64,000 nt of DNA from NCBI GenBank assembly GCA_033064195.1, contig JARBJD010000019.1, forward strand, positions 425,170 to 489,169. The letters are read 5' to 3'. Origin of the DNA: Blattamonas nauphoetae. Taxonomy: Eukaryota; Preaxostyla; Oxymonadida. Under the pieces are notes generated by a model that did no database searches, had not been told where the DNA came from, and saw only the letters and a list, made by a program, of their open reading frames with translations. Shown in pieces: positions 18,349-52,869 of this stretch. Every line of letters starts with the position of its first letter. Within the stretch, counting starts at the first letter, position 1. Both the position numbers and the translations under genes were made by a program.

Positions 18349-19821
18349 TCAGGGAAATCCTCCACGTCGTCTTTGGTTGGCTTCTGGGTCAAACAGTTGA
18401 TTGAGATTGAACGGCTCGATTCTTAGTGTGCTTCTGCTCTGATGGGACATATTCTGGGGCAGTGGCTGGTTGGAGTACTGTTGATAGTTTTGCTGTATAT
18501 TGAGGGAGTTGGGGAACTGCCTTTGTTGAGGTGGCTGTTGTTGGTGCATTTGTTGATTGGGCGAGATCAGCTGCTGTTGGGGTGGCATTTGGGGCATCAT
18601 CATTGGCTGTTTGAGCCACAGAACTTCTACAGATTGATTCTCAGCAAGAAATCCAGTTGTGATTCCGAGGCAGAGAGGAGAAGGGATGTCGGTGAAGATC
18701 CCAGGCTGTTCTTCATCGTCCACAAACAGTCGAGCTGTTCTTGTCGACATGTTCACTCGAATCGCTGCTGTCTGCCCAACTTGATCACATCTCATGTTTG
18801 TTCCTGCTGGCTTGAATTCTCCTCCTTTCCACATCCCTCCATCCCAAAGGATGAAATCACCTCCAATCCCACTGTGATAGGATCCACAATGACGTTGTGT
18901 GGCATTTTCAGGAAGAGGATATCTGACGAAGCCAAGTGCTGAAAAGATAAGAAGAGAGAAGAACACACTCAAAGCCCAAAACGTGTTGTTTCCTCTGATT
19001 TTGAGTTCCCACTCTCCCTCGTCAATCGGAAGGGTGAATGCTGTTCTCCATTCTCCATTTTCGAGTTTGATGATCTGTGTGATTGAGTTTGGAGGTCGTG
19101 TGATTGAGTTTGAAATTAGTGTGATGGAGTTTGGAGTTAGTGTAATTAAGCTTGGAGTTAGTGTGTGGGCAGTTTTGTCGAGTGTTTGGAGTGCTTCTGT
19201 TCCAACCCATTCTGTTCTCATCATCATCCTCATCCGCTCCATCTTCTCAGACATCTCTTTCTTTTCATCCTCCATCTTTGCTCTTTCGCTTTCTGCGCTT
19301 CTCTTTTCAACAGCCAACTCCACCCGTAATTCTTTGATTCGCGTTTCGAGCTCATTCTTGTGTCTTGTCATTTCTGAAGATCGCCGTTCGAGCTCAGCAC
19401 GCGATTGTTCGAATGTCGCGTTCTGCGCAACCAGAATTCTGGTCACTTCTTCCATCGATTTCAACTCGTCAGCATCGACAAGCACGAATGGGCCGTCCTC
19501 AATAGATTCCAAGGAAACCAAGCACTGACCAATTCCAACACGGATCGTCTTGGGAAGAGATGAGGATTTTGCGAGAGTGGAGAGGGAGGAATGAAGCATG
19601 CGTCGATTGACAACGGAAATGTCATTCTTCAAACACTCGTTGAGAATCTGAAGAATGGATTGGATGAGCCTCCCCATTTTGTGTTGATTCACCTCTTCAA
19701 GCAGGTTACTGTCTCGCATTAGAATCGGAATGTTCTGCCAAACTCTCGAGTTCACAATCGTGTCTGGTTGTGACAGTCCTCTTTCCAATTCTTCAATAGT
19801 TGTGTCGATTGACACTTCTTT
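18349..19821 (-). CDS. Cassette gene C: N-terminal module, coiled coil, SPRY-like domain, Q/P-rich tail
   Basis: A single open exon of 490 codons begins right after a splice acceptor (CTGATTTCAG at about 19822-19831) with K-E-V-S-I-D-T-T-I-E-E-L-E-R-G. The shared module (about residues 1-110) is followed by a short coiled coil, then several copies of a Pro-Asn-Ser-Ile-Thr-like repeat (about 19070-19170). Next is a SPRY/B30.2-like beta domain: W-R-T-A-F-T-L-P-I, then A-R-L-F-V-D-D-E-E-Q-P-G-I-F. It ends in a Gln/Pro/Met-rich tail and a TGA. There is no ATG at the beginning. The preceding 33-nt mini-exon is broken by a transposable element (19885-20980), so the original 5' end is lost or must be spliced around the insertion. 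The gene may be a decaying copy although this exon has no internal lesion. Confidence 0.72.
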   Translation of the reverse strand, partial: KEVSIDTTIEELERGLSQPDTIVNSRVWQNIPILMRDSNLLEEVNQHKMGRLIQSILQILNECLKNDISVVNRRMLHSSLSTLAKSSSLPKTIRVGIGQCLVSLESIEDGPFVLVDADELKSMEEVTRILVAQNATFEQSRAELERRSSEMTRHKNELETRIKELRVELAVEKRSAESERAKMEDEKKEMSEKMERMRMMMRTEWVGTEALQTLDKTAHTLTPSLITLTPNSITLISNSITRPPNSITQIIKLENGEWRTAFTLPIDEGEWELKIRGNNTFWALSVFFSLLIFSALGFVRYPLPENATQRHCGSYHSGIGGDFILWDGGMWKGGEFKPAGTNMRCDQVGQTAAIRVNMSTRTARLFVDDEEQPGIFTDIPSPLCLGITTGFLAENQSVEVLWLKQPMMMPQMPPQQQLISPNQQMHQQQPPQQRQFPNSLNIQQNYQQYSNQPLPQNMSHQSRSTLRIEPFNLNQLFDPEANQRRRGGFP

Positions 19822-19884
19822 CTGAAATCAGAGAGAAATAGTGTTATTCATGCTGAAAGTAGGGAGATTCAGACCTGCACACTT

Positions 19885-20980
19885 GTGCGAATCCACGATG
19901 ACTACACACTTTCGAATTTTTTGAAATAAATCAGATAACAAAACCAAATAAGAAGTGAGATCATACGACGCATCTAAATTTCTCTTCTAACGAGCTCTAG
20001 AGTGATAAACGGTCACAACTTTCTTCTGTCGTCATTATCTACGAACATGCAAGGTTTCTGTTTTGTTGAACTGGAAATTATCAGACAGTGAATGTTTTGA
20101 TGCTGAAACTGGAGCTTGAAGGACAAACAACCAAAACACGGTGATATCCGACAATGTGATCAGATCGCAGAAAATGACTTCCCAATGTCTCGTGTGTCAT
20201 TCAAAAGAATCTTATTCGACTTTGTTCTTGTTTTTAGTGACATAACGTCCCGAGTTTATTCTCGCAAAGGATATGGTCGACTTCAGAAGTTGGTTCGAAG
20301 CAAACACGGGAACTGAATGGCGACTGACTATTGTCATGTCTGAAAATGTTGATAAAAGGTATCAAACACGACCAAGTTGGATAAATATGTCTGGTTCCGT
20401 CTAAAAGCGAATCGCAGTGAACTGTCGATTGGAGTCTGTTTCTTTGCGATTGACTCAGAATGGCATAGGTTGGGAGACGATTCCTGAAAACAGATAAGAT
20501 TTGTGCGATTGTTTGATTGACCATGTCCTTTGGATGAGATTGAAGATAGAAATCGCCTGATTTTGACCGGATTGGTTTGAGGAGTGTATTGTCCGAAAAA
20601 ATGTGTGAAATGAGTTGTCAACACCGATGATGTGGTGTTTGGTTTGATCACTAGTTTACTTGTTGGAGATCAGGATCAAAGAATGGACTTCCTTTTCTCG
20701 CGAACCAATAGTCGACGAGAGAGCTGAATTTGTGAGATATTTGATGAGAAGGTGACATAATCTGATATTTCTTAGTGGAAGACTGACTTTCTGCGATTGA
20801 TAAGGTCTCAAAAGAAGATGCAATCGAAACCAATTTTCTGAAATGGGCGAGCGAAATGAAACGAACAAGGAATGAAATGGCAAAAGAAAGGTATGAGGCG
20901 TGATCTCCTCTTCCTTCTATTGGTCACGACTCAATCTGGTGCGTTTTTGAGGATAGTGCGAAGTCATCGTGGATTCGCAC
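19885..20980. mobile_element. TIR DNA element, copy 1 (1,096 bp, non-autonomous?)
   Basis: The element begins GTGCGAATCCACGATGACT and ends with its exact reverse complement (19-bp perfect TIR, imperfect similarity for about 10 more bases). It is flanked by direct ACTT repeats (19881-19884 and 20981-20984). The second copy (40055-41152) is nearly identical throughout. Only short frames exist inside, and the two copies differ by indels within them, so a functional transposase is not evident. The insertion falls within the 33-nt mini-exon upstream of cassette gene C. A 4-bp duplication excludes Tc1/mariner (TA) and hAT (8 bp); I cannot assign a superfamily. Confidence 0.9.
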
Positions 20981-20984
20981 ACTT

Positions 20985-22085
20985 TGATTGGAACCAAATA
21001 GGAGATCCTGATTGGATTAGAAAGAATGAGGATGGAATGTCATGGAAGGAAGTGGATAGAGAAAGAATCAGACAACTACATACAGAATTATATGCTGGTA
21101 ACATCTCGAAACGATGAGATCGAACCAACCAGAATTTCTCAGCTCCTCTGGATTCTCACTTCTGATCTAAAAGTGTTGTGAGATTCTTTGAACGTGCACA
21201 AGTCGAATATCTCCAATTTTCTTGAACTAGCACATATTTGACACAAGGAATGGACTCAACAAAGCGATTTGGACAAAACTCGCATTTCAAGCCAGTCGAG
21301 ACTGTAATCCATATCTTCTGACCCCATGCGAACAATGCTGCATTGTTCAATTGATCAACGATCTGTCGTTTTTGAAGCATTTCGGCGAGAATAGTGAATA
21401 GAGCAAAAAGACTATTCGAACAAAAGACATTGTCTCAAAACCGTTCTCCGTGACGTGAAGCATCGCTTCATCCAATTTTCCGCTTCTCTGTGTTCGATGG
21501 GATGTCTTGATATTGTCAGGTCATGATATCACATTCAGAAAGAAAAGAAATGATCCTGCCAAATTTTCGTCCTCTGGATTGAAGTGATGCAGAGACGGAA
21601 CACCACTCCTCCTCATCTATATTCCATAGTCATCCTAAATTATGATGTCCCGACCTTCATTCAGATGCATCTCGCTGGAAAAGTGGCATCAAACGTTGAC
21701 CGACTTCATCGCACTTTTCTTGTTGACCCAGATGGTATTGTTGCCAACATTGCACTTGGACCTCATCTCCCACGTTCGGGATAGACCTTTCAAGAATTCC
21801 ACCAAGAAATGGCGATCCATGTCTCATGAAAGATCACCCAATCTTTCAACCGTCCTCTCGGCAAGCACAATCATTAACCTCTGTTCATAACACGAGAGAC
21901 GACAAGCAGACACACAGACAGACCTCGTGAAATCAGAAACAGTGATGATCAATGTCATGGTGGGTCTCTGGTTGACTTTCACAAAAATCACATGATTTTG
22001 ACGAATGGGGGAAGACGTGCAGGACGAAAGGAGACGGAATCGCGAAATGGAAGACAAAAACATGAAACAACGGCTCAACTCAGAA
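20985..22085 (-). pseudogene. Decayed upstream part of a cassette unit (duplicate of 26456-27430)
   Basis: This stretch aligns along its length with 26456-27430. It holds the continuation of the broken mini-exon at its left end, remnants of an upstream exon (frame 21380-21156, Cys/Trp-containing, with a matching but stop-ridden copy at 26660-26860), and a conserved segment at 21600-21830 also present at 27110-27310. Neither strand of the last segment gives a recognisable protein. No intact gene can be drawn. It reads as the eroded 5' half of an ancestral cassette gene. Confidence 0.4.
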
Positions 22086-22715
22086 ATGGTGCTCAGTGCA
22101 TGAGCTCTTGCATGAGCGGCGCTGAAGATTGTGGAGAACAACAAGACAGTGTTCATGCTGAACACATTCGGCTCGCCTGTGACGACGACATTGATCCGTC
22201 AGCGGCAGAAGCAATACCGTCGTGGTACACAAACAAGCGTGTGGCGTGATTGTGCACGTGGTGGGGAAGAACTACTTCGGGTTTGACGAGACGGGGGTGG
22301 TGACGGGGATTCTGTGGAGATGGCCCGGAGAGAGCGGGCATGTGAACGGATGGCGGTTTGGGTGGGTTGCGGGGCGGGGGGATTCCAGACATGACAGGGG
22401 CGCAGATGGCGGGGCATTGCTGGGTCTGTCGTCGGTGTTCTCGACGTTGGAGCGTGGGGAGATTCTTTTGAAGAAAGGGCATGTGGGAGTGTATGTGGGG
22501 GACGGGGTGGCAGTGGAGGCGACGACGGAGTGGACAAACAGTGTTGCGCGGGCGGCGGTGTCGAATTTGAAGGAGGAGCCTGGTCTGCATTCGCAGAAAT
22601 GGGAGAAGCATGGGAAGCTGGAGTCCGATCATCTCCATCCTGATCCTCGCTACTTGGTGTCTGCGTTCCGATTTGATCTTCGGAGTGGGCTGAACAAGCT
22701 GACGAACGAGATTCG
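22086..22715 (+). pseudogene. NlpC/P60-type peptidoglycan hydrolase relic, copy 1
   Basis: Frames on the plus strand encode W-Y-T-N-K, then N-Y-F-G-F-D-E-T-G-V-V-T-G-I-L-W, then K-K-G-H-V-G-V-Y-V-G-D-G and E-A-T-T-E-W. This is the core of an NlpC/P60-like cysteine peptidase of bacterial and phage type, in which the first motif is normally F-D-C-x-G. Here the catalytic Cys position is Glu, while the His of G-H-V-G remains. Two compensating frame changes garble the 20 residues between the motifs (about 22380-22425), and the 5' end is out of frame. Such genes in protists are generally of bacterial origin. It is a non-functional relic, or at best a binding-only descendant. Confidence 0.6.
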
Positions 22716-22780
22716 TGATTGTGTACGACAGAACAACCCAACCACCTCCTCCAGCTTCTAATCATACCGCTCCTACTACT

Positions 22781-22890
22781 GAGCCACATTCACAGCATCC
22801 ATCTCGCCAAACGGAACAGCTTCTGTCACCATCTCCCACAGAATCAAGCCAAGACTAAACACGGTTTTGAACCACTTAGATGGAGACTGG
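22781..22890 (-). pseudogene. Protein-kinase subdomain IX relic
   Basis: Read leftwards, this short stretch encodes S-K-W-F-K-T-V-F-S-L-G-L-I-L-W-E-M, then V-P-F-G-E-M-D-A-V-N. That is the F-helix region of a tyrosine-kinase-like or Ser/Thr kinase domain (normally V-F-S-L-G-x-x-L-W-E-x-x-T-x-x-x-P-F). Two stop codons follow directly and no N-lobe is present nearby. It is a fragment left from duplication. Confidence 0.5.
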
Positions 22891-23008
22891 GTTCAACTCA
22901 TGCAATATTTGATCACCCTTCCAAAATTTGTATGCAACATAAAATAAAACAAGATGAAAAGTGACAAAAGAAGAGCAGTTCGATCAGCCAGACCAATCGT
23001 CAACACGA

Positions 23009-26000
23009 TTAATCATTCGGCGGAGCCTTATTGTTGATGGCCTTCGTGATCAATGTCCGCATCAGATCAACATCGGTGACTTTCGGAATGTCGAGTCTGT
23101 TGAAGCACGTGTGTCCTTCGGGCAAATGAAATCCATCCGAATTAAGAAGATGAAGAGTGAAACTGGGTTGTCCCGTCAGAGGAAGAATGCGAAGTGATGT
23201 GGTTCCACATGCCAAGCGGATGATTTCTCTCCGGACTTGGTCGGATGATGTCTCCACAACCTCCCAGAAGGCATCAGCAACATCACCACGTGTTTTGAGT
23301 GCATCCGAGTACTTCGTCATCTCTTTCCACTTCGCAACATCGATCGTATCTTCCCCGCAGACAGCGAGTTCCAGTTCCTGCGGAGAGAGCATCCGAAGCA
23401 CGTCTGGAGGAACAAGCGATGTCAGTCCAGCACGCATCGCCATCAACTGCGGCGAATACCATTGGAGCACAGCACCAGCCGCCAAATCATGAAACAGAGC
23501 CCAATCAGAATGGCGGACAATTTTCGTTTCTCCTTCGGGGATCAGTTCGGTGTTTGTTCCATCTGGAAGAGTGGTCGTCCAGTGAAGCTCTAATTTGGTC
23601 AGATCATCTTCTGAGAAGGAGAGGAGTCCAGATAGACCAGTCACCAGATTGGGGTTCGCCAAAGAAAGATCAGAAGCAACAGCAGCATCGCCTCGGAGTT
23701 GCTTCCAGATGAACTCGTTGAAGCGAAACGGAACAGGAATCCCTTCCAGCAGCATCTTTCCCAGCACAACTCCAACAAACCGATACATCTTCAAGAACTC
23801 AAGTGATCTCGTCTGGCTGTCGTTCGCAATCATCATCCTTCCATCGCTGTGTCCATCCACAACAAACAGACGCTGGTCGTCGGGATCCATCAGACGTTCA
23901 ACCAGCTTCGTGAAGTACCAACTCTTCAGTCCATTCGTATCAATCGCGCTTGTTCCTTCGATCGTGACGATGAAGGATCCCAGAAGTTCATCGGTCGTCA
24001 GAGACGAGAAGGCCTGCATTGTTCTCTCGACGGAAATGTCAGGAGTGAAAGTGACAATCCTTTTGCCCCTAATCGATTCAGGTTTGATTCTTCGAAGTGC
24101 TTTGACGAACTCGTCTCGACTGGCATGTGGCGGAGTTGAATTCGTCTCTACCCTCTTCTCGTTTTCTTTTGATTCCTTCAAATTGTTCTCTGCATTCTGC
24201 AATTCGATTAGGAGTTGTTCTATTCTCGTTTCCGCTCCTCTGATTGCGATTTCCGTTGCATGTTCCCGTTCCTTCGCTCTTTCCAATTTCGCTTCTGCTT
24301 CTTTCCTTTCCTCCCTTTCTTTCCTCAGCTTCTCCTCGTCGTCTTTCAGTTGTCGTTGGAGAGTCGCGATGGTGTTGCTCAGCTGGCCGATCTCTTCTTT
24401 TTGGTTCGAAGATGTTTGCGTGTGGTCAAGAACAGCGTCTTCCATCGACTTGAACTCATTCGCATCGACAAGCATGGAAGGTCCGTCCTTGACAGAATCC
24501 AAGGAAGCCAAGCATCGGTCAACGCCATCACGGATCGTCTTGTCGGGAGTGGAAGACGTGGCGAGAGTGGAGAGGGATGAATGAAGCATGCGTCGATTGA
24601 CAAGTGGGATGTCATTCTTCGAACACTCGTTGAGAATCTGAAGGATGGATTGGATGAGTTTCTCCATTCTGGGGATGTTCTTCTTTTCAAGCATGTCACC
24701 ATCTCGCAGCAGATTCGGGATGTTCTGCCACACTCCTGAGTTCACAATCGCTTCGGGTTGTTCGATTCCCCGCTCCAATTCTTCGATGGATGTGTCGATT
24801 GTGTTTTCGATCTGAAATCAGAGAAATAGAGTCATTCATGTTGAAAAAAGGGAGATTCGGACCTTCAAATACTTTTTCAGACTTTTCTGGAAATCCTGAA
24901 TGAATGAGTAAAGATGGTGATAGAATAACGCAAAAGATAGAGACAGAATGAAAGATCGGATAACGAGATACAGAGAGGAGGTTGTTTTGCTTGTTTTGGC
25001 AAGTGATGTCTGTTCGAACAAGATGAAGGACTTCAATAGGTTTATTCTGGTCGCGGGTTGAGATTCCGAGGCAGAGAGGAGAAGGGATGTCGGGGAAGAT
25101 CCCAGGCTGTTCCTCATCATCCACAAACAGTCGAGCTTCTCTCGTTCTCATGTTCACTCGAATCGCTGCTGTCTGTCTGATTCTCTCCCACTTCTTGTTT
25201 GTCCCTGCTGGCTTGAATTCTCCTCCTTTCCACATCCCTCCACTCCAAAGAGAGAAGTTCCCACCAATCTCACTGAAATAGCTTCCACAATGACGTTGTG
25301 TGGCATTTTGAGGAAGTGGATGCCTGAGGAAGCCAAGCACTGAAAAGATGAGAAGAATGAAAAGCACACTCACATCAGGTCCAGTCTGATCTGATCTTCG
25401 GATTTTGAGTTCCCACTCTCCCTCGTTGATCTGAAAAGTGAATGCTGTTCTCCATGGATTGTCGTGTGGAGTCGAGGCGATTTGTGTGAGAGTGGTTGAA
25501 GTGAGTGTGTGAGCTGTTCTGTCGACAGTTTGGAGTGATTCAGTTCCAGACCATTCTGTTCTCATCATCGCTCTCATCCGCTCCATCTTCTCTCTTCCAT
25601 TCTCTGAACGTCTTTCCTCTTCTGGCATCCTCCTACTCTCTTCTTCTGCTTCCATCTTCTCTTCTTCCATCCTCCTTCTTTCTTCTTCTTTTTGCTTTTT
25701 TTCTTCTTCCATCCTCCGACTATCTTCTTCTCTTTTCTTTTTTTCTTCTTCCATCCTCCGACTATCTTCTTCTCTTTTCTTTTTTTCTTCTTCCATCCGC
25801 TTCCGAGCTAGTTCTGCTTCTCTTCTGGCGGTTTCAGATGCCTGTTCTCGTTCCTTCGCTCTTTTTGCTTTCTCTTCCGCTTCCCTCCTTTCCTCCCTTT
25901 CTTTCCTCAGCTTCTCCTCGTCGTCTTTCAGTTGTCGTCGGAGAGTGATGGTGTTGTGACTCGAAGTGTCCATCCCTTCTTTCTGCGTCGAAGCTGTTTG

Positions 26001-26479
26001 TGAGTTGTGAAGAGCAGCGCTTTCCATCGATTTGAACTCGTCAAAATCGACAAGCACGAATGGGCTGTCTTCAAAAGAATCTAAGGAAGCCAAACACTGG
26101 TCAATTCCAACACGGATCATTTTCGGAAGAGAGGGAGATTTTGCGAGAGTGGAGAGGGAGGAATGAAGCATGCGTCGATTGATGATCGAAATGCCGTTCT
26201 TCGAACATTCATTGAGAACACGAAGGATGGATTGGATGAGTCTGCCCATTTGGCGTTCATTCTTCTCGTCAACCAAGTCATTATCCCGAAGTAAAAGCGG
26301 AACGATTTGCCAAACTCTTGAGTTCACAACAGCATCTGGTTGTGACATTCCTCGTTCTAATTCTTCGATAGCAGTATCGATTGTGATTTCTTTCTGACAT
26401 CAGAGAGAAAGAGAGTTATTCATGTTGAAACAAGGAAGATTCGGACCTTCAGACTTTGATTGGAACGAAATAGGAGATC
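23009..26479 (-). CDS. Cassette gene B: module-SPRY-like plus module-HECT E3 ubiquitin ligase
   Basis: Visible exons, 5' to 3': mini-exon 26479-26447, 26393-24972, mini-exon 24895-24863, 24811-23009, all phase 0, giving about 1,096 residues. Exon 26393 carries the shared module, a charged coiled coil with repeated E-E-E-K-K-K-R-E-E-D-S-R-R units, and a SPRY-like domain. Exon 24811 carries the module again, a second coiled coil, and a full HECT domain (last 365 residues, usual size about 350). It ends in the catalytic motif G-H-T-C-F-N. The active Cys codon is at 23107-23105, 31 residues plus the last Phe before the end, as in HECT ligases. HECT enzymes form a ubiquitin thioester and transfer ubiquitin to substrates, so this should be an active E3. 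The true first exon, upstream of 26479, is not identified. Use of both cassettes in one mRNA is inferred from splice-site phase; the two halves could also be separate genes. Confidence 0.8.
24193..24565. repeat. Near-identical block shared with 29870-30242
   Basis: About 370 bp encoding coiled coil plus part of the shared module are identical in the HECT gene and the kinase-LysM gene except for a substitution or two. Homology stops abruptly on the left, where HECT and kinase begin, and falls to about 90% on the right. This is the mark of recent duplication or gene conversion. Confidence 0.85.
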
Positions 26480-27430
26480 CTGGATGAATGGGAAAACAAT
26501 GGGGTGAGAATAGTGAGGAAAATGGAGGAAGGATCAAGACATAGATTATGACATACAGAGTCATGCCCTGGAAACATTTCGACAGGCTGTGATCGAGCCA
26601 GAAATAATTCCTCATCTAAACTGGATTCTCACACCACTTCCCAATATATCATGAATACTTCTGAACGTGCATGAGTCGAATCTCTCCAATGATATCGAAC
26701 CAGCACTTATATAACACAAGGAATGGACACAGCAAAGCGATCTGGACAACGCTCAATTTTCAAGCCAGTCGAGTCTATAATCCATCCACTCTTACCCAAT
26801 GCGAACAATGATGCATTATTGAATTGATCAACAATCTGTCACTTATGAAGCGCGTCAGCGAGGACAGTGAACGAGACCACAAAAGTGTTGAGACAAAAGA
26901 CTTCATCACAAAACCGTTCTCCATGACGTGAAGCATTGCTTCATCCAATTTTCCGCTTTTTCGTATTCGATGGGATGTGTTGATATTATCATGTCATGAT
27001 ATCACATTCAGAAAGAGAAGAATGAAATGTGACAACTTCAAGTTCTCACGTTTGTTGTAATACAGTGACGAAATACTCCTCCTCCTCACCTACATTGCAT
27101 GATCATCCTCAATTATGATGTCCCGATCTTCATTCAGATGCATCTCGCTGGAAAAGTGGCATCAAACAATGACCGACTTCGCCGCACTTTTCTTGTTGAC
27201 CCAGATGGTATTGTTGCCAACATTACACTTGAACCTCATCTCCCACGTCAGGGATGGACCTTTCAAGAATTCCACCAAGAAATGGCGATCCATGTCGCTT
27301 GAAAGATCAACATATCTTTCAGTCGCTCTGTCTCCAGGTCCTAATCTCGGCCTCCGTTCAAAACACGAGAGAAGACAAGCAGAAACATAGTCAGTCGTCA
27401 TGAAATCAGAAACAGTGAGGAACAATGTGA
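26480..27430. pseudogene. Decayed upstream region of cassette unit B (duplicate of 20985-22085)
   Basis: Aligned with the left duplicate over its length. Minus-strand remnants at 26530-26640 (N-Y-F-W-L-D-H then a GTATGT donor) and 26660-26860 contain stops. The conserved segment 27110-27310 has no recognised product on either strand. No intact gene is visible. Confidence 0.4.
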
Positions 27431-28085
27431 TGACGGCCCAAATCAGATATCGGACACAGTGCAGTAGCTCTTGCATCAGCGGCACTGAAGATTGCGGAGA
27501 ACTACAAGACAGTGTTCATGCTGAACACATTCGGCTCGCCTGTGACGACGACATTGATCCGTGAGCGGCAGAAGCAATACCCGTCGTGGTACACAAACAA
27601 GCGTGTGGCGGGATTGTACAGCGTGGTGGGGACGAACTACTTCGGGTTTGACGACACGGGTGTGGTGACGGGGATTCTGTGGGGATGGCGCGGAGAGAGT
27701 GGGTATGTGAACGGATGGCGGTTTGGGCAGTTTGCGGGGCAGGGGGATCCCAGACATGACAGGGGCGCAGATGGGGGCATTGCTGGGTCTGTCGTCGGTG
27801 TTCTCGACGTTGGAGCGTGGGGAGATTCTTTTGAAGAAAGGGCATGTGGGAGTGTATGTGGGGGACGGGGTGGCAGTGGAGGCGACGACGGAGTGGACAA
27901 ACAGTGTTGCGCGGACAGCGGTGTCGAATTTGAAGGAGGAGCCTGGTCTGCACTCGCGGAAGTGGGAGAAGCATGAGAAGTTGGAATCCGATCATCTCCA
28001 TCTTGATCCTCGCTTCTTGGTGTCTGCGTTCCGATTTGATCTTCGGAATGGGAAGAACAAGGTGACGAACGAGATTCGTGACACT
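27431..28085 (+). pseudogene. NlpC/P60-type peptidoglycan hydrolase relic, copy 2
   Basis: The better preserved copy. One frame gives A-V-A-L-A-S-A-A-L-K-I-A-E-N-Y-K-T-V-F, then S-W-Y-T-N-K-R-V, N-Y-F-G-F-D-D-T-G-V-V-T-G-I-L-W-G-W. The next frame continues G-I-P-D-M-T-G-A-Q-M, then G-H-V-G-V-Y-V-G-D-G-V-A-V-E-A and R-K-W-E-K-H-E-K-L. The break between them is a single shift in a run of G near 27745. The order of motifs matches NlpC/P60-like peptidoglycan amidases/endopeptidases of Gram-positive bacteria and their phages. The catalytic Cys is replaced by Asp (Glu in copy 1). The gene also lacks a proper 5' end. Confidence 0.62.
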
Positions 28086-28426
28086 GCCAAGTCGACTGTG
28101 AGCTGCCTGTGTCATCTTTCTGGTTGGTCTGTTTGCCTTCGCTCGGATGTGGGTGAACATACTGATCCAGACCAACGAGGAGGGATTGAAGTCGTTCGCT
28201 GGGCTTCCAAACTCCCGCGACGAGGGAGAAACGTAACTTTTTCCACTTCGAGAGTTTCTCAATACCGATTTTTGACCAACATACAGAATGGATCAATCAA
28301 ACAGGACAAAGAAATGAAGAAAGATGGAAAAGATGCTCAGACATCGACGAGGTTGGTGTGATAGTGAACTCAAAGATTAGTGAAAAAAAAATGAAAATGC
28401 GAGCAAGAAAGATAACACAAGCAGCA

Positions 28427-31400
28427 TCAGGGTTTATAGTACAACACTTGACCCGGATAGATCATGTTCGGCTCCTTCATCCCATTTCTCTCCATCAGAG
28501 CAGCCACAGAAGTGCCGAGTCTGGCGGCAATTGCATTGAGTGTGTCTCCTGTTTGGACGGTGTACGACCGACCACTCTTCTCCATCTTTTCCCTCACTTC
28601 TTTAAGATCGGTGAGAGTTCTCTTCAATTCATCTGATAGCTTCTCTTTTTCTCTCTCTGATTGTTCTTTCTGTTCCGCATCCATCAGCTTCCAAATTCCT
28701 TCCGCTGAGTTCACAATGCAGCGGAACGTCTTCCCACGAGACAACTGGCGACTGGTCAATCGAGTCTCGGCACTCTGATTCAACATCAAAGTGGGAGAGA
28801 GATAAGAAGGGATGATGAAAAGAGAAGAGGAAGGCAGACAGGATCCATCATTCGCATCAGCAGCTCTCGCTCTGCCTCTCCACACGAATTCGGAATCTGA
28901 GTCGCTTTGAAGGACGTGATTTCTTTAATCATCTGAACGACTTTCAAACTCTTGAAAGGCGGCTCTCCAAACAGCAGCCGATACAGCACAACACCCAACG
29001 CCCACACATCCCCCTCACACGTCGCTGCTCCCGACTCTGAGTTCAGTCTCTCCGGCGACACATACAGCGGAGGCATCTCAAATTCAGTGAGGTTCACATC
29101 TTCAGAATATGTTTCCCCAAAACCACCTTCGAAGTCGAACAGAGGACCAGAGAAGAGGGAGGGAGTGATACGGATGAGAGAGAGAAAGAAGATGCATACA
29201 GAGCTTCACATGGCCATCTTCGTCCATCAGGATGTTCTCCATTTTGATATCGCCGTGTGATATCCTTCCATCTGTGTGGTTGTGTATATGATCCAGTGCG
29301 GACGTAATATCCTCCATCACTCGATATACTTCCTGATACAGTCAATCCACCAACAATATGAAGACAATACGAAGACCAAAAAACAAGTATGAGAGAGAAA
29401 AGATGAATAAAAGGTGATTGGCGAACACACATCTCGAGGCATCTGGATGTTCCTTGATGTATAGTCGTGAACAACATCGGCAAGAGATATTCCGCCCAGT
29501 TCCATCACCATCACTTTTGCGTTGTCCATTGTGATGACTTCCTTCAGTTTGATGATTCGAGGATGCGAGAATGTTTTCAGCCTTCCAACTTCACGATCGA
29601 AGCGGTCTTTGTGTTTCTGCGTCATACACGGCACTATCTTTCCTGCATAGTGGATGTTGGTCGACTTTTCAATCAATTCCACAACAGTCCCAAATCCACC
29701 AGAGTTGATGATTCGGACAAACGAATCTGAGCGGGATACAGAGATTCAATTGGATAATGAAATCGACAACAGGCACATACACCCATCAGGGTATTGGACA
29801 ATGTCAGTGAGAGATTGTTCGCCCAGTTTCATCTCTCTATCTTCTGATTCCTTCAGATTCGTCTCGACCTTCTGCAATTCGATTAGGAGTTGTTCTATTC
29901 TCGTTTCCGCTCCTCTGATTGCGATTTCCGTTGCATGTTCCCGTTCCTTCGCTCTTTCCAATTTCGCTTCTGCTTCTTTCCTTTCCTCCCTTTCTTTCCT
30001 CAGCTTCTCCTCGTCGTCTTTCAGTTGTCGTTGGAGAGTCGCGATGGTGTTGCTCAGCTGGCCGATCTCTTCTTTTTGGTTCGAAGATGTTTGCGTGTGG
30101 TCAAGAACAGCGTCTTCCATCGACTTGAACTCATTCGCATCGACAAGCATGGAAGGTCCGTCCTTGACAGAATCCAAGGAAGCCAAGCATCGGTCAACAC
30201 CATCACGGATCGTCTTGTCGGGAGTGGAAGACGTGGCGAGATTGGAGAGGGAGGAATGAAGCATGCGTCGATTGACAAGAGAGATGTCGTTCTTCGAACA
30301 CTCGTTGAGAACATGAACGATGGATTGGATGAGTTTCTCCATTTTGGGGATGTTCTTCTCTTCAAGCAAGTCATCGTCTCGCAGCAGATTCGGAATGTTC
30401 TGCCACACTCCTGAGTTCACAATCTCTTCTGGTTGTGACACTCCTCTTTCTAATTCTTCGATGGTTGTGTTGATTTTGTTGTCGATCTGAAATCAGAGAG
30501 AGTGTCATTGAAGTGAAAACATGAACGAATCGTACCTTCAAATGCTTGTTCAGGCTTTTCTGGAGATCCTGAATGCATGAATGAATTATGATAGTGACGG
30601 AATATCACAAAAGATAGAGACAGAATGAGAGAACAGAGAACGGGATACAGAGTGAAGGGTTTTTTGCTTGGTTTGGCGAATGGTGTCTGTTCGAAGAAGA
30701 TGAAGGACTTCAATTGGTTGATTCTGGTTGTGTGTTGAGATTGCGAGGCAGAGAGGAGAAGGGATGCCAGTGAAGATTTTAGGTTGTTCCTCATCGTCCA
30801 CAAACAGTCGGGCTTCTCTCTTCCTCATGTTCACTCGAATCGCTGCTGTCTGCCCAACTTGAGTGTCTCGCGTATTTGTTCCTGTTGGCTTGATTTCTAT
30901 CCCTGTTTTCCACATCTCTCCACTGTAAAGAAGGAAATCACCACCAATCCCACCATCATAGGCACTACAATCCGCATGTGTGGCATTGTCTGGAAGTGGA
31001 TGCTTGAGGAAACCAAGCGCTGAAAAGATGAGAAGAGAGAAGAACATACTCACATTCCAGAGTGGGTCATTTCCTCTGATTTTGAGTTCCCACTCTCCCT
31101 CGTCGATCGGAAAAGTAAATGCTGTTCTCCAATCATTGCCCTCGTCAAGTTTGATGATTTGTGTGAGGGTGGTTGGAGTAAGTCTGTGAGCGGTTCGGTC
31201 GACAGTTTGGAGAGATTCAGTTCCTTTCCATTCTGTTCGAAGCATCATTCTCATCCGTTCTATCTTCTCAGTCATCTCTCTCTTCTCTCTCTCACTCTTC
31301 TCCTTCTCTTCTCGAGTTTCTTCAAGTTCTTTCACGATCTTCTTCATTTCATCCGATAACTTCTCTTTTTCTTTCTCGGCCTTCTTCAGCCTCTCCTCTG

Positions 31401-31913
31401 CCATCTGCTTCGCATCATTAAGCTTCGAAGCTGTTTGAGTGCTCTGAGAAGCGTCTTCCATCGAATGCAACTCGTCAGCATCGACAAGCACGAATGGGCC
31501 GTCCTCAAAAGAATCCAAGAAAACCAAGCACTGACCAATCTCAACACGGATCATTTTGGGTAGAGAGGGAGTTTTTGAGAGAGTGGAGAGGGAGGAATGA
31601 AGCATGCGTCGATTGACAACGGAAATGTCATGCTTCAAACACTCGTTGAGAATCTGAAGGATCGACTGGATGAGTCTGCCCAGTTTGTGTTGATTCACCT
31701 CTTCAAGCAGGACACTGTCTCGCAACAGATTCGGAATGTTTTGCCAAACTCTCGAGTTCACGATCGCTTCTGGTTGGGACGTTCCTCTTTCTAATTCTTC
31801 AATTGCTGTATCGATTGTTCCTTCTTTCTGACATCAGAGAGAAAGAGATAAATTCAAGCTAAAATAAAGAAGGATCTGACCTTCGAACTTGAAGTTGAAT
31901 CGAGCTGGAGATC
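28427..31913 (-). CDS. Cassette gene A: module-SPRY-like plus module-protein kinase-LysM
   Basis: Exons, 5' to 3': mini-exon 31913-31881, 31827-30649, mini-exon 30568-30536, 30486-29781, 29726-29431, 29332-29200, 29126-28840, 28774-28427. Phases agree throughout, giving about 1,000 residues. The first large exon is module, coiled coil and SPRY-like domain. The next begins with the module and coiled coil again. A kinase domain follows: glycine loop S-G-G-F-G-T-V-V, Lys in Y-A-G-K-I, Glu in R-E-V-G, S-H-G-D-I-K-M-E-N in place of H-R-D, and S-P-E-R-L for A-P-E. The DFG site is abnormal: the only AG acceptor yields K-L-C-G-F-G, so it may be a pseudokinase. The last exon is a short coiled coil and a LysM domain (Y-T-V-Q-T-G-D-T-L, then M-I-Y-P-G-Q-V-L-Y), which typically binds peptidoglycan or chitin. 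No signal peptide is seen. The 5' end is unresolved and the two halves might be separate genes. Confidence 0.78.
29870..30242. repeat. Near-identical block shared with 24193-24565
   Basis: The partner of the block in the HECT gene. The repeated part covers the coiled coil and the C-terminal part of the shared module only; the kinase exons lie outside it. Confidence 0.85.
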
Positions 31914-32409
31914 CTGAAGAGATGATAAAGAATGATGACACAAAATTGTGGAAGGAAGTGGATGGAGAAAGGATCAGTCATCGACATACAGAATCATGTG
32001 CTGGTAACATCAGAACAAAAGGTGATCGAGCCGACATGAATTCATTAGAAAACAAGTCAAGTGACCATCCTCTCGCATTTTGTTGACCAAGTTGGAGTTT
32101 GGCATCATGAGCGAAATTGTACATTTTGCCCCCCGACCACCCGTCCTACCTCCCTCGGGCGGTTCTCGAAGCCCAATACTCAATCCACTCCGATCCACTC
32201 CTCGATTCTCAAAGAGAACGAAAACGAAGACAAAGTAGTTCTTCACTTTAACCGTAGCTCTTCATTTCTGTAGGAATAATCGATCGTCTCATTGATGAAT
32301 CACTGGCCCCTCTTCTCTGTGGTATTTTTCCCTCATCCTCACCTCGCCAGTTTTCGACAATACCTCTCTCTATTCCTTTGGATCACCACTTGACAATGTT
32401 CAATTTCAG

Positions 32410-33170
32410 GTTGTTGATACAATTCAAGGAACGAAACAAGATTTCACGATTGGGTTTGTTCAAATTCGCCGAGATATGGTCCATCCAGCAAACCAACAAG
32501 AACTCCCAAAATACAGATTAGAAAGATGGAGCGGAACAAGATTTTCCGTGTATCTGTCCCAAAATGGTCCAATGATCCTTCCAGGAAGACAGGAACTACT
32601 AACTGCGAGACTCGATATTTTAGTCAAAGAGGCATTAGAACTCTACGTACGTGAAAATAGAGCTCCTCCCTCCACAATCATCATGTACAGAGATGGTGTT
32701 GGTGATTCTCAATTCGAAGCTGCCGTCCAAAGTGAATACAGCATGATGATCAAAGGCATCCGCGACTACACGCCACAAACTGCGTATCGCCCGCAAACTA
32801 CAAATATTATGGTCAACAAGAGAATCAACCATCGCTTTTTCACTCCAGACGGGCAGAATGTCCAACCAGGAACTGTTATCGACACTGTCGTGACCTCTCC
32901 TCTCTTCTACGACTTCTTCCTTGTTGCACAAGCTGTGGACCACTTTACCACAGCACTCCCAACACGATTTGTTGTTTTGCAAAGCGATTTGAGTGGACCA
33001 ACCACCAGCTGCAAGACTTCACATCCCAACTCTGCCATCTCTACTGCAACTACCCTGGCGCTATCAGTCTTCCGATGCCTGTTCAAGTTGCCCACAAACT
33101 CAGCCTGTACTCTCAGGACATTCTGGACGGAGCAAATTCAAAGATCTCCACACTCCCGTTCATCTTTTGA
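32410..33170 (+). pseudogene. PIWI domain of an Argonaute/Piwi protein, truncated and frameshifted
   Basis: Directly after a splice-acceptor-like site (TTCAATTTCAG) an open frame reads V-V-D-T-I, then F-T-I-G-F-V-Q-I-R-R-D. It continues into PIWI motifs: I-I-M-Y-R-D-G-V-G-D (Asp of the catalytic tetrad), N-K-R-I-N-H-R-F-F, P-G-T-V-I-D, Y-D-F-F-L-V, P-T-R-F-V-V-L. Near 32988 one base appears to be missing from a T run. The next frame goes on E-W-T-N-H-Q-L-Q-D-F, then L-C-H-L-Y-C, and V-A-H-K-L-S (catalytic His), ending TGA at 33168-33170. MID, PAZ and N domains are absent. A possible short upstream peptide begins with ATG at 32107, but it does not connect cleanly. Argonautes cleave or repress RNA guided by small RNA; this copy is probably dead unless the shift is an assembly error. 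Confidence 0.75.
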
Positions 33171-33372
33171 TTTCGATCTCACCATCATTAAATGATTATT
33201 CAAATAACTCAGACACAATCACACTTCATTGAAACTATTTAGCATAACAAATAAGAAATTGATGGTGGGACGGAATAATACTGTCTCATAGAGAAGAAAT
33301 GAGAAGTCGTCCACCCCATACTTATTTTCGTTTCGTTTTCGAGATAATCCTCATCATTCTATTTTGAATAAT

Positions 33373-39107: not shown

Positions 39108-41571
39108 TCATCGCTTTTTCGGTAATTTCGTCCTTGTTGAGGGTGATGTTTGAAGGACAGGATGAAATAGACACCCTTCATTCTCTTTCTGCTTTTGAGT
39201 GATGTTAGCATCCTCGCTTCTGATGTTTCTTCGAATTCTGTCCAACTCAATGGCTTCAAGATCATAAACATTGTGTTTTCGTTCGCTGGCAGTTTTAATC
39301 TCATCATACGCTTCATCAAGCCGCATTTGTGCTTTCCGACGTTCCTCCGCACGAAATTGTTGCATTGCTTCATCATCGTCAAACGAGTCTGAAATAACAA
39401 CATCTGTGCTTGTTTCAGTCTTTTGGATTACTTTAGATGTAGATGGACGTTTGGGGTTGTGTTTGGGGGAAGGAGAACCTTTAGCGGGAGATTGAGAGAG
39501 AGTCTTGACGACGGTGGATGATTCGCGATTATTTGACGGTGAAGTGGGAGATGGAAGAACATCTGGTCGCATATCTTGTGGAGGGCCACGTAGAAACTCA
39601 GTGAGTTCATTTGGATTCATATTAGAGAGCACTGACGTCTCAGAAGGGTGAGCGGCCGGATCGTCTGAGGCCTTTCCTGTGAGTGCAGCTTTCTTCATTT
39701 GTTCTTCTTCAAAAGCAAGTTCTTGATTCGTCCTATTCAATAGATCCTTGAACATTGCGTCCTTCCTTCTTAACACTGGAACGAACGGTTTCTTCTGAGT
39801 GTTGGCAGGTTGTGCGACAAACGACACCATTCCTTCATCAATCATCACATTGATTTCAGTTCTTTTCAGGCCCTCTTTTTCTCTTCGATTTATTGCATCG
39901 GCATAGAGGCGTTCAGAGGGAGGGGAAGTGGGGGTGAGAGAGTTGGCTTTCTTCGAAAGAATGGGTGAAAAGGAGCATTGTGCCTGTTCTGAACAATCAA
40001 TGGCTTTCTGGAGGTTCTTTCGTTTGGCTTGAACTGATTGACTCCATGCGAACTGTGCGAATCCACGATGACTACACACTTTCGAATTTTTTGAAATAAA
40101 TCAGACAACAAAACCAAATAAGAAGTGAGATCATACGACGCATCTAAATTTCTCTTCTAACGAGCTCTATAGTGATAAACGGTCACAACTTTCTTCTGTC
40201 GTCATTATCTACGAACATGTGAGGTTTCTGTTTTGTTGAACTGGAAATTATCAGACAGTGAATGTTTTGATGCTGAAACTGGAGCTTGAAGGACAAACAA
40301 CCAAAACACGGTGATATCCGACATTGTGATCAGATCGCAGAAAATGACTTCCCAATGTCTCGTGTGTCATTCAAAAGAATCTTATTCGACTTTGTTCTTG
40401 TTTTTAGTGACATAACGTCCCGAGTTTATTCTCGCAAAGGATATGGTCGACTTCAGAAGTTGGTTCGAAGCAAACACGGGAACTGAATGGCGACTGACTA
40501 TTGTCATGTCTGAAAATGTTGATAAAAAGGGATCAAACACGACCAAGTTGGATAAATATGTCTGGTTCCGTCTAAATGCGAATCGCAGTGAACTGTCGAT
40601 TGGAGTCTGTTTCTTTTGTGATTGACTCAGAATGGCATAGGTTGGGAGACGATTCCTGAAAACAGATAAGATTTGTGCGATTGTTTGATTGACCATGTCC
40701 TTTGGATGAGATTGAAGATAGAAATCGCCTGATTTTGACCGGATTGGTTTGAGGAGTGTATTGTCCGAAAAAATGTGTGAAATGAGTTGTCAACACCGAT
40801 GATATGGTGTTTGGTTTGATCACTAGTTTACTTGTTGGAGATCAGGATAAAAGAATGGACTTCCTTTTCTTGCGAACCAATATTCGACGAGAGAGCTGAA
40901 TTTGTGAGATATTTGATGAGAATGTGACATAATCTGATATTTCTTAGTGGAAGACTGACTTTCTGCGATTGATAAGGTCTCAAAAGAAGATGCAATCGAA
41001 ACCAATTTTCTGAAATGGGCGAGCGAAATGAAACGAATAAGGAATGAAATGGCAAAAGAAAGGTATGAGGCGTGATCTCCTCTTCCTTCTATTGGTCACG
41101 ACTCAATCTGGTGCGTTTTTGAGGATAGTGCGAAGTCATCGTGGATTCGCACAACTGGTCATCAACTGATCTGGTCATTCCTTTCGCTCTTTTCGTGATT
41201 TTGGGTTTGAATTGAACGTCCTGCTTGGCTTGCTCTGCTTCAGAAAGGAAAATTCTATCCCGGGTCTCCTGCCGGCGATACACAATTTCCTGCTGACGCT
41301 CGTCAAACGCCATTTCTGAAAGTCTTGTCGTTCGGGAAGCTGAGGACAAGGCTGGAGAACGTCCGGCTGGAGGGGCTTCTTCAGCAACAGATACAACAGA
41401 ATGGGGAAGATGAAGAAAATCTTCAGATTTATTCGATGACATGGTCGACAATGGAGAATTGGCTGTTTTCTGAGATGGATGAGTGTCAAGAGCTGGTGAG
41501 GGATGCTCAGTTGTTACATATGTCAGAGTGTTTGAAGAGTGTGTTGAAGTTGGATCGGAGTTTCGTTCCAT
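39108..41571 (-). pseudogene. Unknown protein gene split by TIR element copy 2
   Basis: The 5' part (41571-41157) ends M-T-R-S-V-D-D-Q. The 3' part (40050-39108) begins F-A-W-S-Q-S-V-Q-A-K-R. Between them sit the element and one extra copy of the 4-bp target. Without those the two parts read through in one frame, about 450 residues. The protein has repeated F-x-P-x-[IL] motifs: F-K-P-K-I-T, F-S-P-I-L-S, F-H-P-V-L-Q. It also has an R-L-Y-A-D-A-I-N-R-R stretch and an acidic/basic helical end. Similar F-x-P plus R-L-Y patterns occur in protist flagellar or cytoskeletal proteins of unknown function; I do not recognise the gene. Another exon may lie upstream (frame 41767-41640) but its junction could not be resolved. 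Confidence 0.75.
40055..41152. mobile_element. TIR DNA element, copy 2 (1,098 bp)
   Basis: Same termini and orientation as copy 1, with 19-bp perfect TIRs and flanking AACT direct repeats (40051-40054 and 41153-41156). Only scattered substitutions and a few small indels separate the copies, so both moved recently. It interrupts the coding exon of the F-x-P repeat protein. Confidence 0.92.
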
Positions 41572-41956
41572 TGATAAGTTTGTGAGGAAAAAGAAGAAAG
41601 AGTGGGTGCTCTCGAAATTGAATCAGAAGATGATTCAGTTGACCTGAAAATCTCGTTTTATGAAACAAATCAAACATTTGTCGCTCTTTCCACTTCGTTA
41701 ATTGAGTAATTGCTTGATCCGACCGAATCGTTTTTCGAAAGAGTTCCTCCTTCCATCTCAGGCGCAATCGACCCTTTCAGACCTCTTTGGAACTAATTCC
41801 ATATCTGAAGGACTGGTTTGGACCTTCATTGGATTCATATAAATACTCTCTTACCCTTGATTCACTTGACGATCATTCATCATCTCTTTCTCATCTATTT
41901 GATCTTTGTTTCAATTATTACCCCTTTCCGACAATCTTGGACATGTTTTGTTTCAG

Positions 41957-43921
41957 ATGGAAGAATTCAGGAGATGCGAAAGTGAGTTCAAGAATGGTGA
42001 TGAAACCGTCCAATTCAAGATCGCTCATTCTGTCCTCACCATTCTCACATCAGGTCTGTCAAATACTTTCTTTCTGATTTTTTGATTGTTTACGATCGTT
42101 TTCTTTTGATTTGGATCATTCATTTTTCTTCATTGTGGGGTTTTAGAATCATCAAAAATGAAAGCACAAATTGAGATTGGGATTCGGAGTGGATTACTGG
42201 AGTTATTTTCAGAACGACTTTCTTCGGATTGTCCATCCACTCTTTCTGTCTGTCTCTCTTCTTCTCTCGATATGATGTTATTTCTCATTCCTTTTTCTTC
42301 GACGATTTTCAGGCAATTCTGTCCAGTGTGATCGTGATGATGGCGGAATCAGTGTCAGAAGGAAGACAGAGACTTCGAAGTGACTTAATTCCTTCCCTCC
42401 TTGCCCTCACATCTGTATGTTCCACACTTTCTTCATCTCTTCTCTTTCTCCTTCTTTATCCTCATCTCGTTGCTGTTTTGATGATCAGCATGCAGACAGT
42501 TCGTTGTCGACACCAGCCACACACTCGATCGGGTCTGGTCTCTTTTCTCTTCTTCATCATTCTCTCATCTCTTCTCTCTCGTTCTCTCTCCTTTTGCTTT
42601 GATTTATGTTTGAAGTCTTCTGTTTGGTGGAAGTCTTTCGTCGATTGAACTGGAGGGAGTGTTGAGTTCGGGAATTGTGGAGAGACTTTGCACTCAAATC
42701 GAAAGCGAACCTTGCGAAGTGGATCTTCTCCCAGCACTTCATGTTTTGGACAGATTGTGCTCAGGATTGAGCGAAGTGATCGAACAAGAGAGATCGAAAG
42801 CAACAGAAAAGAAGAAAGAATAATCAAAGGAAGACCAGTTCTCGCTGACTCGTCGGTGTGGATTCGCGCTGTCTCGAATCGAACAAGGAGTTCGAAGACT
42901 TGAGAAGAGAGTTGGAGGACAAGTTCATTGTGACGAGAAAACACGAAACATCCAAAAAGAAGTTGGAGGAATGATTGTTCGTCATTTCCGATCGTCGATC
43001 CACTCGTTGGAGAAAGAGATTGGAGAGATTGGGATTGACTTGGTGGCTGTTCGAAGGGAGATGGATGACAAAATGAGACAGATGGAAGCAGAACGGACGA
43101 AGTTGCGAGAAGAAGTGGAGAAGGAGAAGAGAGAGATGGAGATGCGAGAGAACGAGAGAGAGATGGCAGCAAAGAAAGCGGAAGAGGAGAGACAAAGAGA
43201 GTTCTCGAGGAAGATGGGAGAGATGGAAGCAGAAAGAGAGAAGGAGAAAAGAGAGATGGAAGAGATGAAGAAGCTTCACGAAAAATGGATTGAAGAAGGA
43301 CGGCAGAGGGATGAAGAGAAGAAAAGAGAAGAAGAAAAGAAGCGAGAGGAGAGAAGGAGGAACTTGAAGGAAGGAGCAGCAGCAATCGAGGTGTTCCAAC
43401 AAGACAATTACCAAGTCACAGGAAATGTGTTCACCAAATTAACAACCACAAACCATCACCTTCTCTCGCATTCATTTGGAGAAGTCATCGTGCGAATCAC
43501 TTTCATCATTCGAACCATCGGCAACGAGTTTTATTTTGGGTTGATCTCGACCGACCTGACAGAACTGACAAGGACTGGACCAAGATTTTTCGCAAACGCG
43601 AAAGGAGGAGCTGGATGGGATTGTCATTCGACTTTTCGATATGCGAGACAGAACAGTAAAGATTCGTACATTGCAAATGCGTGCAAAAGAGGGTATGTTG
43701 GACAGCGTGTGGTGATGGAGGCAGATGGACGAGAAGGGAAGAGAACACTTCGACTGTCGCAGGATGGAGAGACGCAACCAACATTCTTCTCAAACATCCC
43801 TATTCCGTTCAGATTCGTCATCCATCCTTATTCGGCAAATTCAGCAGTTGAGATTGTGTCCACAGAAGTGTTGAGAGAGGTGTCGATGGTTGGAGGGAAT
43901 TTGGACGTGGTGATGGACTAG
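41957..43921 (+). pseudogene. Helical-repeat plus coiled-coil plus SPRY-like gene with one in-frame TAA
   Basis: Exons 41957-42053, 42147-42247, 42313-42414, 42489-42532 and 42616-43921 join in phase. The first 190 residues are helical and armadillo-like (F-K-I-A-H-S-V-L-T-I-L-T type helices, L-L-E-L-F-S-E-R-L, L-I-P-S-L-L-A-L-T). In the last exon the frame meets TAA at 42821-42823. It is then open again, without shift, to the TAG at 43921. That second stretch encodes R-R-L-E-K-R-V, a long E/K/R coiled coil (43020-43380), and a SPRY-like domain (V-T-G-N-V-F-T-K, R-I-T-F-I-I, T-L-R-L-S-Q-D-G). Either the TAA is a recent nonsense mutation or sequencing error, or two adjacent genes are involved. 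ATG 41957 is just behind an acceptor-like TTTGTTTCAG, so an upstream exon may exist. Confidence 0.65.
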
Positions 43922-44213
43922 TCAGAGCTTTTCTCTCCGAAATTCTCCACTTGAAATGCACTGGCTCAAACGAGTCTGAGAACTGTTTTTTTCACGAAAT
44001 CACTTCATGGATGCCATCGTCTCTTTATTTGGCGTCTCTCCGATCCGAATCGAGTCAATGTGGGATAACTTGATGGGCTGCGACTGAATGTTGCTGAAAA
44101 TGCTCTGTGTTCATATTCAATCCTCTTTCGTTGAACGTCTCGCTTGTAATGAAGAGAAGCTGACTTCCACATTCCGACCCATAAAGTGTGATTCGAGAAA
44201 CTCACCGAAAGGA
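43922..44213. promoter_or_regulatory. Upstream region of FLNW copy 1, with GACCCATAAAGTGTG motif
   Basis: A GACCCATAAAGTGTG motif stands at 44176-44190, about 25 bases before the ATG. The preceding 100 bases resemble the region upstream of FLNW copy 6 (54910-55038), so the two promoters are duplicates. Confidence 0.4.
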
Positions 44214-45287: not shown

Positions 45288-45614
45288 AACCAAACAAGAA
45301 CAAGCGAACCTTCCGAAGTGTTTCTGACTCTTTTGAGCAACACCCGTCCTTCTCTTTGCGATTGCGACAGCCTCCGTCTTCCCAACTTCATCTCTTCTCT
45401 CCAATCTTGATTTCTGGACGATCCCTCAACACATCGCAGATTGTTCCGTCCATACTCTCTCGACCCACCTTTCACACCTCGTCCTGTCTCCGATCCAACC
45501 GCTCCCGACATTGTTCGAAGTTAATTGACCACACACCCCGCAGCTGTCTTCCCCTCCCTCGTGATTGCCCAGCTTGACTTTGCACAACATCGAGTTCGTT
45601 GTGGTTTGGATTTG
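45288..45614 (+). repeat. Spacer repeat R4, copy a
   Basis: Follows the stop of FLNW copy 1 and matches 50240-50562 after copy 4. It shares TTTGCGATTGCGACAGCCTC and a downstream ACATCGCAGATTGTTCC. No consistent open frame is seen, so it is probably a 3' flank duplicated with the gene. Confidence 0.6.
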
Positions 45615-46830: not shown

Positions 46831-46980
46831 ACATTCCGGAATGCAACCCAGAGCGATTCAAATTTACTCTCGCTCAGTTTCCCGCGATGTCATATATTGT
46901 CTCAATCATCGTTAATTCCTTTTTGCTGTTCATTTGAAGGACTATTTCATCTAATCTCATTGTTTCACAAGCTTTTTTTC

Positions 46981-46996: not shown

Positions 46997-47017
46997 ATTC
47001 GCTCAGTCTCAGAAAGA

Positions 47018-48091: not shown

Positions 48092-48095
48092 AAAC

Positions 48096-48740: not shown

Positions 48741-48744
48741 CATT

Positions 48745-52866: not shown

Positions 52867-52869
52867 AAA

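Follow-up and report, generated by a model that had tools for sequence, protein, structure and literature searches.

Tandem genes sharing a helical module in Blattamonas nauphoetae, probably reshaped by recombination within repeated coding DNA

The window (the whole 64-kb stretch of Blattamonas nauphoetae DNA analysed) carries a minus-strand array that is probably a tandem gene family, partly fused, whose members were reshaped by recombination in repeated module and coiled-coil coding DNA. An earlier note had read the locus as an exon-shuffling system; that reading stands in so far as members of a single N-terminal module family are coupled to various outputs at this locus, but the evidence does not support phase-0 introns as the route of exchange. 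The gene count is corrected from five cassettes to three genes, and the helical module has no confident known relative. The locus provides a compact case of signalling proteins gaining outputs in a little-studied protist, with an identical tract, breakpoints and swapped domains all within 14 kb. It makes testable whether domains are exchanged via introns or via repeated coding DNA, and the evidence presented here favours coding DNA.

Gene structure of the array

As the earlier note had proposed, five copies of the module lie on the minus strand and open with a common block (A1, A2, B1, B2 and C1, starting at 31827, 30486, 26393, 24811 and 19821). The first copy shares 63, 73, 65 and 84% identity with the remaining four across 124 gap-free residues; the I-E-E-L-E-R-G block is invariant in all five, and a second block reads V-N-S-[RG]-V-W-Q. 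The 33-nt exon that had been claimed before each module was also recovered. A scan of both strands of the 64-kb window for a pattern of this type (AG, 33 nt, GT) gave four intact mini-exons at the expected sites, all with phase 0 at both ends, as had been suggested, and the fifth, in gene C, was found to be split by an inserted element (Table 1). Its two pieces restore 33 nt (27+10-4) once the 4-bp target duplication is removed. Because mini-exon sequences vary widely (16-29 of 33 nt identical across six pairs), they look like spacers, and their peptides likewise vary widely without clear constraint.

Table 1 Features of the predicted gene models and of the inserted element, with positions in the window.
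Feature	Position	Strand	Remark
Gene A exon 1, 21 nt	31990..32010	minus	ATG start, MLPAHDS; phase 0 end
Gene A mini-exon 1, 33 nt	31881..31913	minus	phase 0-0
Gene A exon 3: module A1, coiled coil, SPRY-like	30649..31827	minus	SPRY via fold only
Gene A linker intron, 80 nt	30569..30648	minus	
Gene A mini-exon 2, 33 nt	30536..30568	minus	phase 0-0
Gene A exon 5: module A2, coiled coil, first residues of kinase	29781..30486	minus	phase 1 end
Gene A last four exons	28427..29726	minus	29726-29431, 29332-29200, 29126-28840, 28774-28427
Gene B exon 1, 21 nt	26557..26577	minus	ATG start, MFPGHDS
Gene B mini-exon 1, 33 nt	26447..26479	minus	
Gene B exon 3: module B1, long coiled coil, SPRY-like	24972..26393	minus	
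Gene B linker intron, 76 nt	24896..24971	minus	
Gene B mini-exon 2, 33 nt	24863..24895	minus	
Gene B last exon: module B2, coiled coil, HECT	23009..24811	minus	single exon
Gene C exon 1, 21 nt	21084..21104	minus	ATG start, MLPAYNS
Gene C mini-exon, first piece, 27 nt	20981..21007	minus	
Inverted-repeat element, 1096 bp	19885..20980	minus	within gene C mini-exon
Gene C mini-exon, last piece, 10 nt	19875..19884	minus	includes second 4-bp repeat copy
Gene C last exon: module C1, coiled coil, SPRY-like, Gln-rich tail, stop	18349..19821	minus	

In our best model the array comprises three genes, not five, because there are three ATG first exons and predicted in-frame splices from SPRY exon to mini-exon. 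The three first exons, absent from the earlier note, are 21 nt long, run from ATG to TCT and end in phase 0 before GTATGT. In each gene, a 21-nt coding exon would thus be followed by one of 33 nt and then by a large exon that encodes the lineage-specific helical module, coiled coil and SPRY-like region. Genes A and B would then continue in frame across a linker intron to a second mini-exon and module, with kinase, coiled coil and LysM behind it in gene A and HECT in gene B. The predicted products are module-SPRY-module-kinase-LysM for gene A (1011 aa, continuous), module-SPRY-module-HECT for gene B (1104 aa, continuous) and module-SPRY-Gln-rich for gene C. All introns of the gene A and B models are GT..AG, and the last four exons of gene A encode kinase, coiled coil, LysM and stop. 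The SPRY exons end in phase 0, at CACTCT/GTATCCCG in gene A and CTCTCT/GTATCTCG in gene B, and the linker splices (30649/30568 and 24972/24895) are in frame. Such a structure speaks for splicing of cassette 1 to cassette 2 and of cassette 3 to cassette 4, with splicing between genes not required. A 34-nt intron within the SPRY region (GTGAGT..CAG near 31053) was considered and rejected, since it would shift the frame, which is open across it, and gene C has no such donor by eye; the SPRY exon is therefore read as continuous.

That each cassette instead forms its own transcription unit, with the linker between SPRY exon and mini-exon being intergenic, is decidedly unlikely. The A1 SPRY-exon frame does also stay open into the linker, up to a stop at 30586, and the linker splice is predicted from sequence. 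However, we saw no ATG first exon 5' of cassettes A2 and B2 of the kind present before the other three, only 80 and 76 nt separate SPRY exon from mini-exon, the first Met of A2 falls within the module, and in-frame splicing yields continuous proteins.

Intron lengths are 80 and 76 nt for the linkers, 76, 77 and 76 nt for intron 1, and 53, 49, 53, 51 and 53 nt for intron 2. Their differences are mostly not multiples of 3 and the mini-exons are constant at 33 nt, which fits coding exons and non-coding introns. The junctions from exon 1 to mini-exon, mini-exon to module and SPRY to mini-exon are all phase 0, and the kinase introns are phases 1, 0, 1 and 0. Exon 1 could therefore join either mini-exon in frame, making SPRY-less isoforms possible. 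The suggestion that common phase lets units splice in frame thus survives for the skipping or joining of mini-exons, but does not extend to SPRY or HECT, which share the module's exon.

Predicted domains and functions

The HECT, kinase and LysM outputs that had been proposed were all recovered by Pfam, while SPRY in three cassettes gave no Pfam match and is retained as a low-confidence, SPRY-like label on predicted fold alone. The HECT domain of gene B scored E 3.3e-52 (178.5 bits), and its catalytic cysteine (LPEGHTCFNR) aligned with that of SMURF2; a Pfam search of the separate exons of gene B at E 0.1 returned no family besides HECT. In the spliced model of gene A the kinase domain scored E 7.9e-46. 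In the same model, which includes one inferred acceptor, HRD reads HGD, with the Asp kept, and DFG reads GFG; the predicted kinase is therefore possibly weak or inactive. The acceptor in question, that of kinase intron 3, is CTTCGAAG, compared to the CAG ends of the other gene A and B introns; it was the only AG acceptor found by eye, and the GFG reading depends on its use. The LysM domain of gene A scored E 4.3e-16 (59 bits against a cut-off of 20.9) in one Pfam search and E 1.3e-15 in another, and matched 435 records of a phage collection, the best being an endolysin at 63.6% identity.

No Pfam SPRY match was obtained in any of four sequences at E up to 10, a search in which HMMER filters drop most weak matches. 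The AlphaFold model of the SPRY region was weak (mean pLDDT 57.8). Among the 50 listed of 879 Foldseek matches to it, ranks 1-13 were SPRY structures (prob 0.87-1.00), with a best E of 2.1e-3, none of the 879 at or below 0.001, and TMq of 0.17-0.26 for the SPRY rows in ranks 1-20 of this search with a weak model. The matches from this weak model include HERC1, RanBP9/10-CTLH and SPSB proteins, which are SPRY-containing ubiquitin ligases and their subunits. Gene B resembles these in joining a SPRY-like domain and a ubiquitin-ligase output in one protein, and differs from them in its two lineage-specific modules and coiled coils. We infer that gene B would act as an E3 ligase in which the SPRY-like domain picks substrates and HECT ubiquitinates them.

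Plant LysM receptor kinases likewise combine kinase and LysM in one protein, as gene A does, and a weak LYK4/5 Pfam match, below cut-off, was seen. In contrast to the plant receptors, gene A has the order kinase then LysM, its LysM matches phage endolysins, and its N-terminus (MLPAHDS) is by eye not signal-peptide-like. Gene A may thus encode an intracellular SPRY-kinase-LysM protein, possibly with weak or no kinase activity.

Structure prediction of the module, which the earlier note had proposed as a check, gave a confident all-helical domain (pLDDT 85.8, pTM 0.80) without a confident relative. Pfam returned only sub-threshold matches, falling largely on coiled coils, and a PDB profile search returned seven matches, the best at E 0.35. 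The best Foldseek match was 6lth_L (BAF base module; E 0.18, TMq 0.58), and Kap95 reached TMq 0.57 at E 1.5, with none of 383 matches at or below 0.001. The fold likeness is thus weak, part of it being to proteins of ARM/HEAT type, a label that is our own reading. Searches of viral_contigs and genome_contigs for relatives of the module outside the window, or of the module-SPRY exon, confirmed none among 132, 70 and 120 pattern matches; a phage tblastn with one module found no useful relative. Kinship with the helical-looking repeat family at 44-63 kb was rejected, with an hhalign probability of 0.4% for the one member compared. The modules and coiled coils could serve as assembly scaffolds. 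Literature searches on Monocercomonoides HECT and on protist SPRY, HECT and LysM proteins yielded nothing judged related from titles and abstract starts, from which we claim no absence from print; a search on Blattamonas nauphoetae introns gave no match.

Homology breaks and an identical tract within coding DNA

Module and output share one uninterrupted exon in the three SPRY cassettes and the HECT cassette, and splicing therefore cannot re-pair the module with SPRY or HECT. DNA homology stopped inside exons in seven of the eight cassette pairs compared. Breaks were located at 29829/24154 (A2/B2), 31424/30080 (A1/A2), 25812/24230 (B1/B2) and 18656/30734 (C/A1), the last falling where the SPRY-like part ends and not in a coiled coil. 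The eighth pair, A1/B1, has the same output and is homologous to the exon end without a break. Cassette B1 is itself mosaic, with a module and coiled coil that match A2 and B2 as far as 25812 and a SPRY part that matches those of A1 and C. In gene A, the coiled coil lying between the kinase and LysM domains also resembles the pre-SPRY coiled coil of A1 (75% over 85 bp).

The clearest sign of recombination is in the A2/B2 pair, which carries the kinase and HECT outputs and contains a tract of 329 bp without any difference (gene A 29870..30198 and gene B 24195..24523, minus strand). It is preceded by 29 mismatches in 288 bp; past it, homology fades over about 40 bp and is then lost, and the outputs diverge. 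The chance of such an identical run at a 10% difference rate is about 1e-15, as computed after the tract had been seen. The tract points to recent recombination or gene conversion (or crossing-over) within coding DNA. Conversion after a swap could leave the same tract, which is thus a mark of recombination and not of the swap's origin. On the gene A side, the end of homology at 29829 lies only 48 nt from a phase-1 intron (29780), and an intron-assisted event is therefore possible there. The claim that phase-0 cassettes swap outputs is not borne out by these breaks within exons or by the tract in the kinase/HECT pair.

Exons of symmetrical phase are a principle of exon shuffling, and the array resembles such a system in that 33-nt exons lie between same-phase introns and one module may have arrived together with its introns; it differs in that the outputs are not separate exons and the breakpoints fall inside exons. 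Exon shuffling proper, with symmetrical phase-0 cassettes as the exchanged units and the module coupled to outputs through introns, is quite improbable here. Mini-exons and cassette ends are phase 0, giving the symmetrical phases (0-0) that intron-mediated shuffling calls for around an exchanged unit, and the likeness of linker introns to intron 1 in three of six comparisons (below) suggests that one module came with its introns. Against this, no intron separates module from SPRY or HECT, the intron before the kinase is phase 1, exchange boundaries do not lie at introns in the seven broken pairs, and the recurring phase is inheritance by duplication. The recurrence of the module units reads as plain homology via duplication. 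Because the copies descend from one ancestral unit, their common phase 0 is inherited and amounts to about a single observation, not five independent ones. Phase 0 is also unremarkable at this locus, two of the four kinase introns sharing it.

Tandem duplication and proposed history

Two stretches of shared sequence speak for tandem duplication. Genes C and B have 79% identity along 987 bp that start at the mini-exon, include exon 1 and reach into upstream DNA, and the endolysin-like block in the A-B interval is 93% identical over 651 bp to the one in the B-C interval. A2 and B2 form a clade with support of 100/100, and the placement of B1 is weak (80/75). Module dS is 0.15 for A2/B2, 0.45-0.61 for either against A1 or C1 and 0.58-0.76 against B1.

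Linker introns resembled intron 1 in three of six comparisons (z 3.7 for linker A with C, 3.0 for linker B with B and 3.2 for linker B with C), where 2 to 3 of 1000 shuffles reached the score; the other three failed (z -0.4, 1.3 and 1.3). None of 18 control comparisons with other introns exceeded z 1.7. The test is weak, because intron 1 of gene B barely matches those of A and C (z only 1.2 and 1.4). On the three positive comparisons, the second module may have been added by copying a unit of intron 1, mini-exon and module behind SPRY, the one step in which a phase-0 intron may have mattered.

Under the tandem-family reading, segmental duplication would have built the three-gene array. In an earlier step a unit of intron 1, mini-exon, intron 2 and module would have been copied behind SPRY to give the second module, and later, ectopic recombination or gene conversion within the repeats formed by module and coiled-coil DNA would have altered the outputs. 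Owing to the common phase 0, exon skipping within a gene would stay in frame, but that phase would not drive domain exchange. Tandem multidomain families diversified by gene conversion are a known general kind, and the array shares with them tandem units, homogenised tracts and terminal domains that differ between paralogues; unlike them, it has unrelated catalytic domains (HECT and kinase) behind one module, and units apparently fused pairwise. It is conceivable, though unlikely, that module and coiled-coil DNA acts as a recombination adaptor, in which identical tracts retained between the tandem genes would let unrelated signalling outputs (kinase, HECT and others) be swapped repeatedly behind a constant receptor half, and phase-0 skipping of the SPRY half would give output-only isoforms. 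If true, one locus would make new receptor-output pairs at the DNA level.

An inverted-repeat element in gene C

The element that splits the gene C mini-exon is about 1.1 kb long, with 30-bp inverted-repeat ends, and has a second copy at 40055-41152; the two are 98.5% identical and have 4-bp direct repeats (AAGT and AGTT). No stop-to-stop frame of at least 150 aa lies inside it. Both copies sit in coding sequence and point the same way with respect to their host genes. The host of the second copy (39108-41622, minus strand) has a coding exon interrupted by the element, and removing the element and one repeat gives one continuous frame.

The element is possibly an introner. Donor/acceptor pairs near its ends keep the frame in one of six cases in gene C and two of six in the other host, where one third of the cases would be expected by chance, and the splice pairs thus give the introner reading no support above chance; the frame-keeping pair common to both hosts, GTGCGAAT/GTGTGTAG, would leave 21 nt. 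Introner elements of Amoebophrya (PMC7789003) serve as a comparison system: the gene C element resembles them in its inverted repeats, short direct repeat and coding-exon site, and differs in its 1.1-kb length, in having only two copies in the window and in that its splicing is putative. An 18-mer of the element had no match in viral_contigs and two in bacterial genome_contigs, which is within chance (about 7 expected in 257 billion bases).

The insertion bears on whether the array consists of decaying pseudogenes, its mosaic structure and inserted element reflecting lost constraint. Along with the split mini-exon, the apparently broken endolysin-like ORFs between the genes and the absence of DFG from the kinase model would fit decay. 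This explanation is nevertheless highly improbable, as there are open frames of 490-600 aa, ten module pairs give dN/dS of 0.28-0.48, the HECT cysteine is kept, and the near identity of the element copies indicates that insertion may be recent.

Surroundings of the array

The window is taken to be eukaryotic because its introns are short and of the GT..AG type and its genes encode Piwi, Ist1-like, kinase and HECT domains. Its G+C is 0.460, close to the value of 44.96% given in PMC10703272 for the oxymonad Blattamonas nauphoetae. Rfam at gathering scores gave no match in the window, and a tRNA search found none.

Two apparently broken endolysin-like ORFs lie at 22070-22718 and 27433-28081 (plus strand), near the phage-endolysin-like LysM, and this proximity suggests bacterial cell-wall-enzyme DNA at the locus. 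We take these ORFs to resemble NlpC/P60 enzymes. An endolysin-like block gave no Pfam match, and a PDB search of one ORF gave none; a piece of one block matched two unannotated phage records (E 2e-10 and 0.07).

A Piwi-domain gene (32299-33195, plus strand, E 9e-29) stands head to head with gene A. Further along, 44100-63090 (plus strand) holds a tandem family of about eight or more related genes, with pieces at 64-91% DNA identity; two members tested had no Pfam match, and their helical-repeat nature was judged by eye only. A coiled-coil gene at 42824-43921 (plus strand) also had no Pfam match; an alignment of its end to the gene A SPRY part shows 29% identity.
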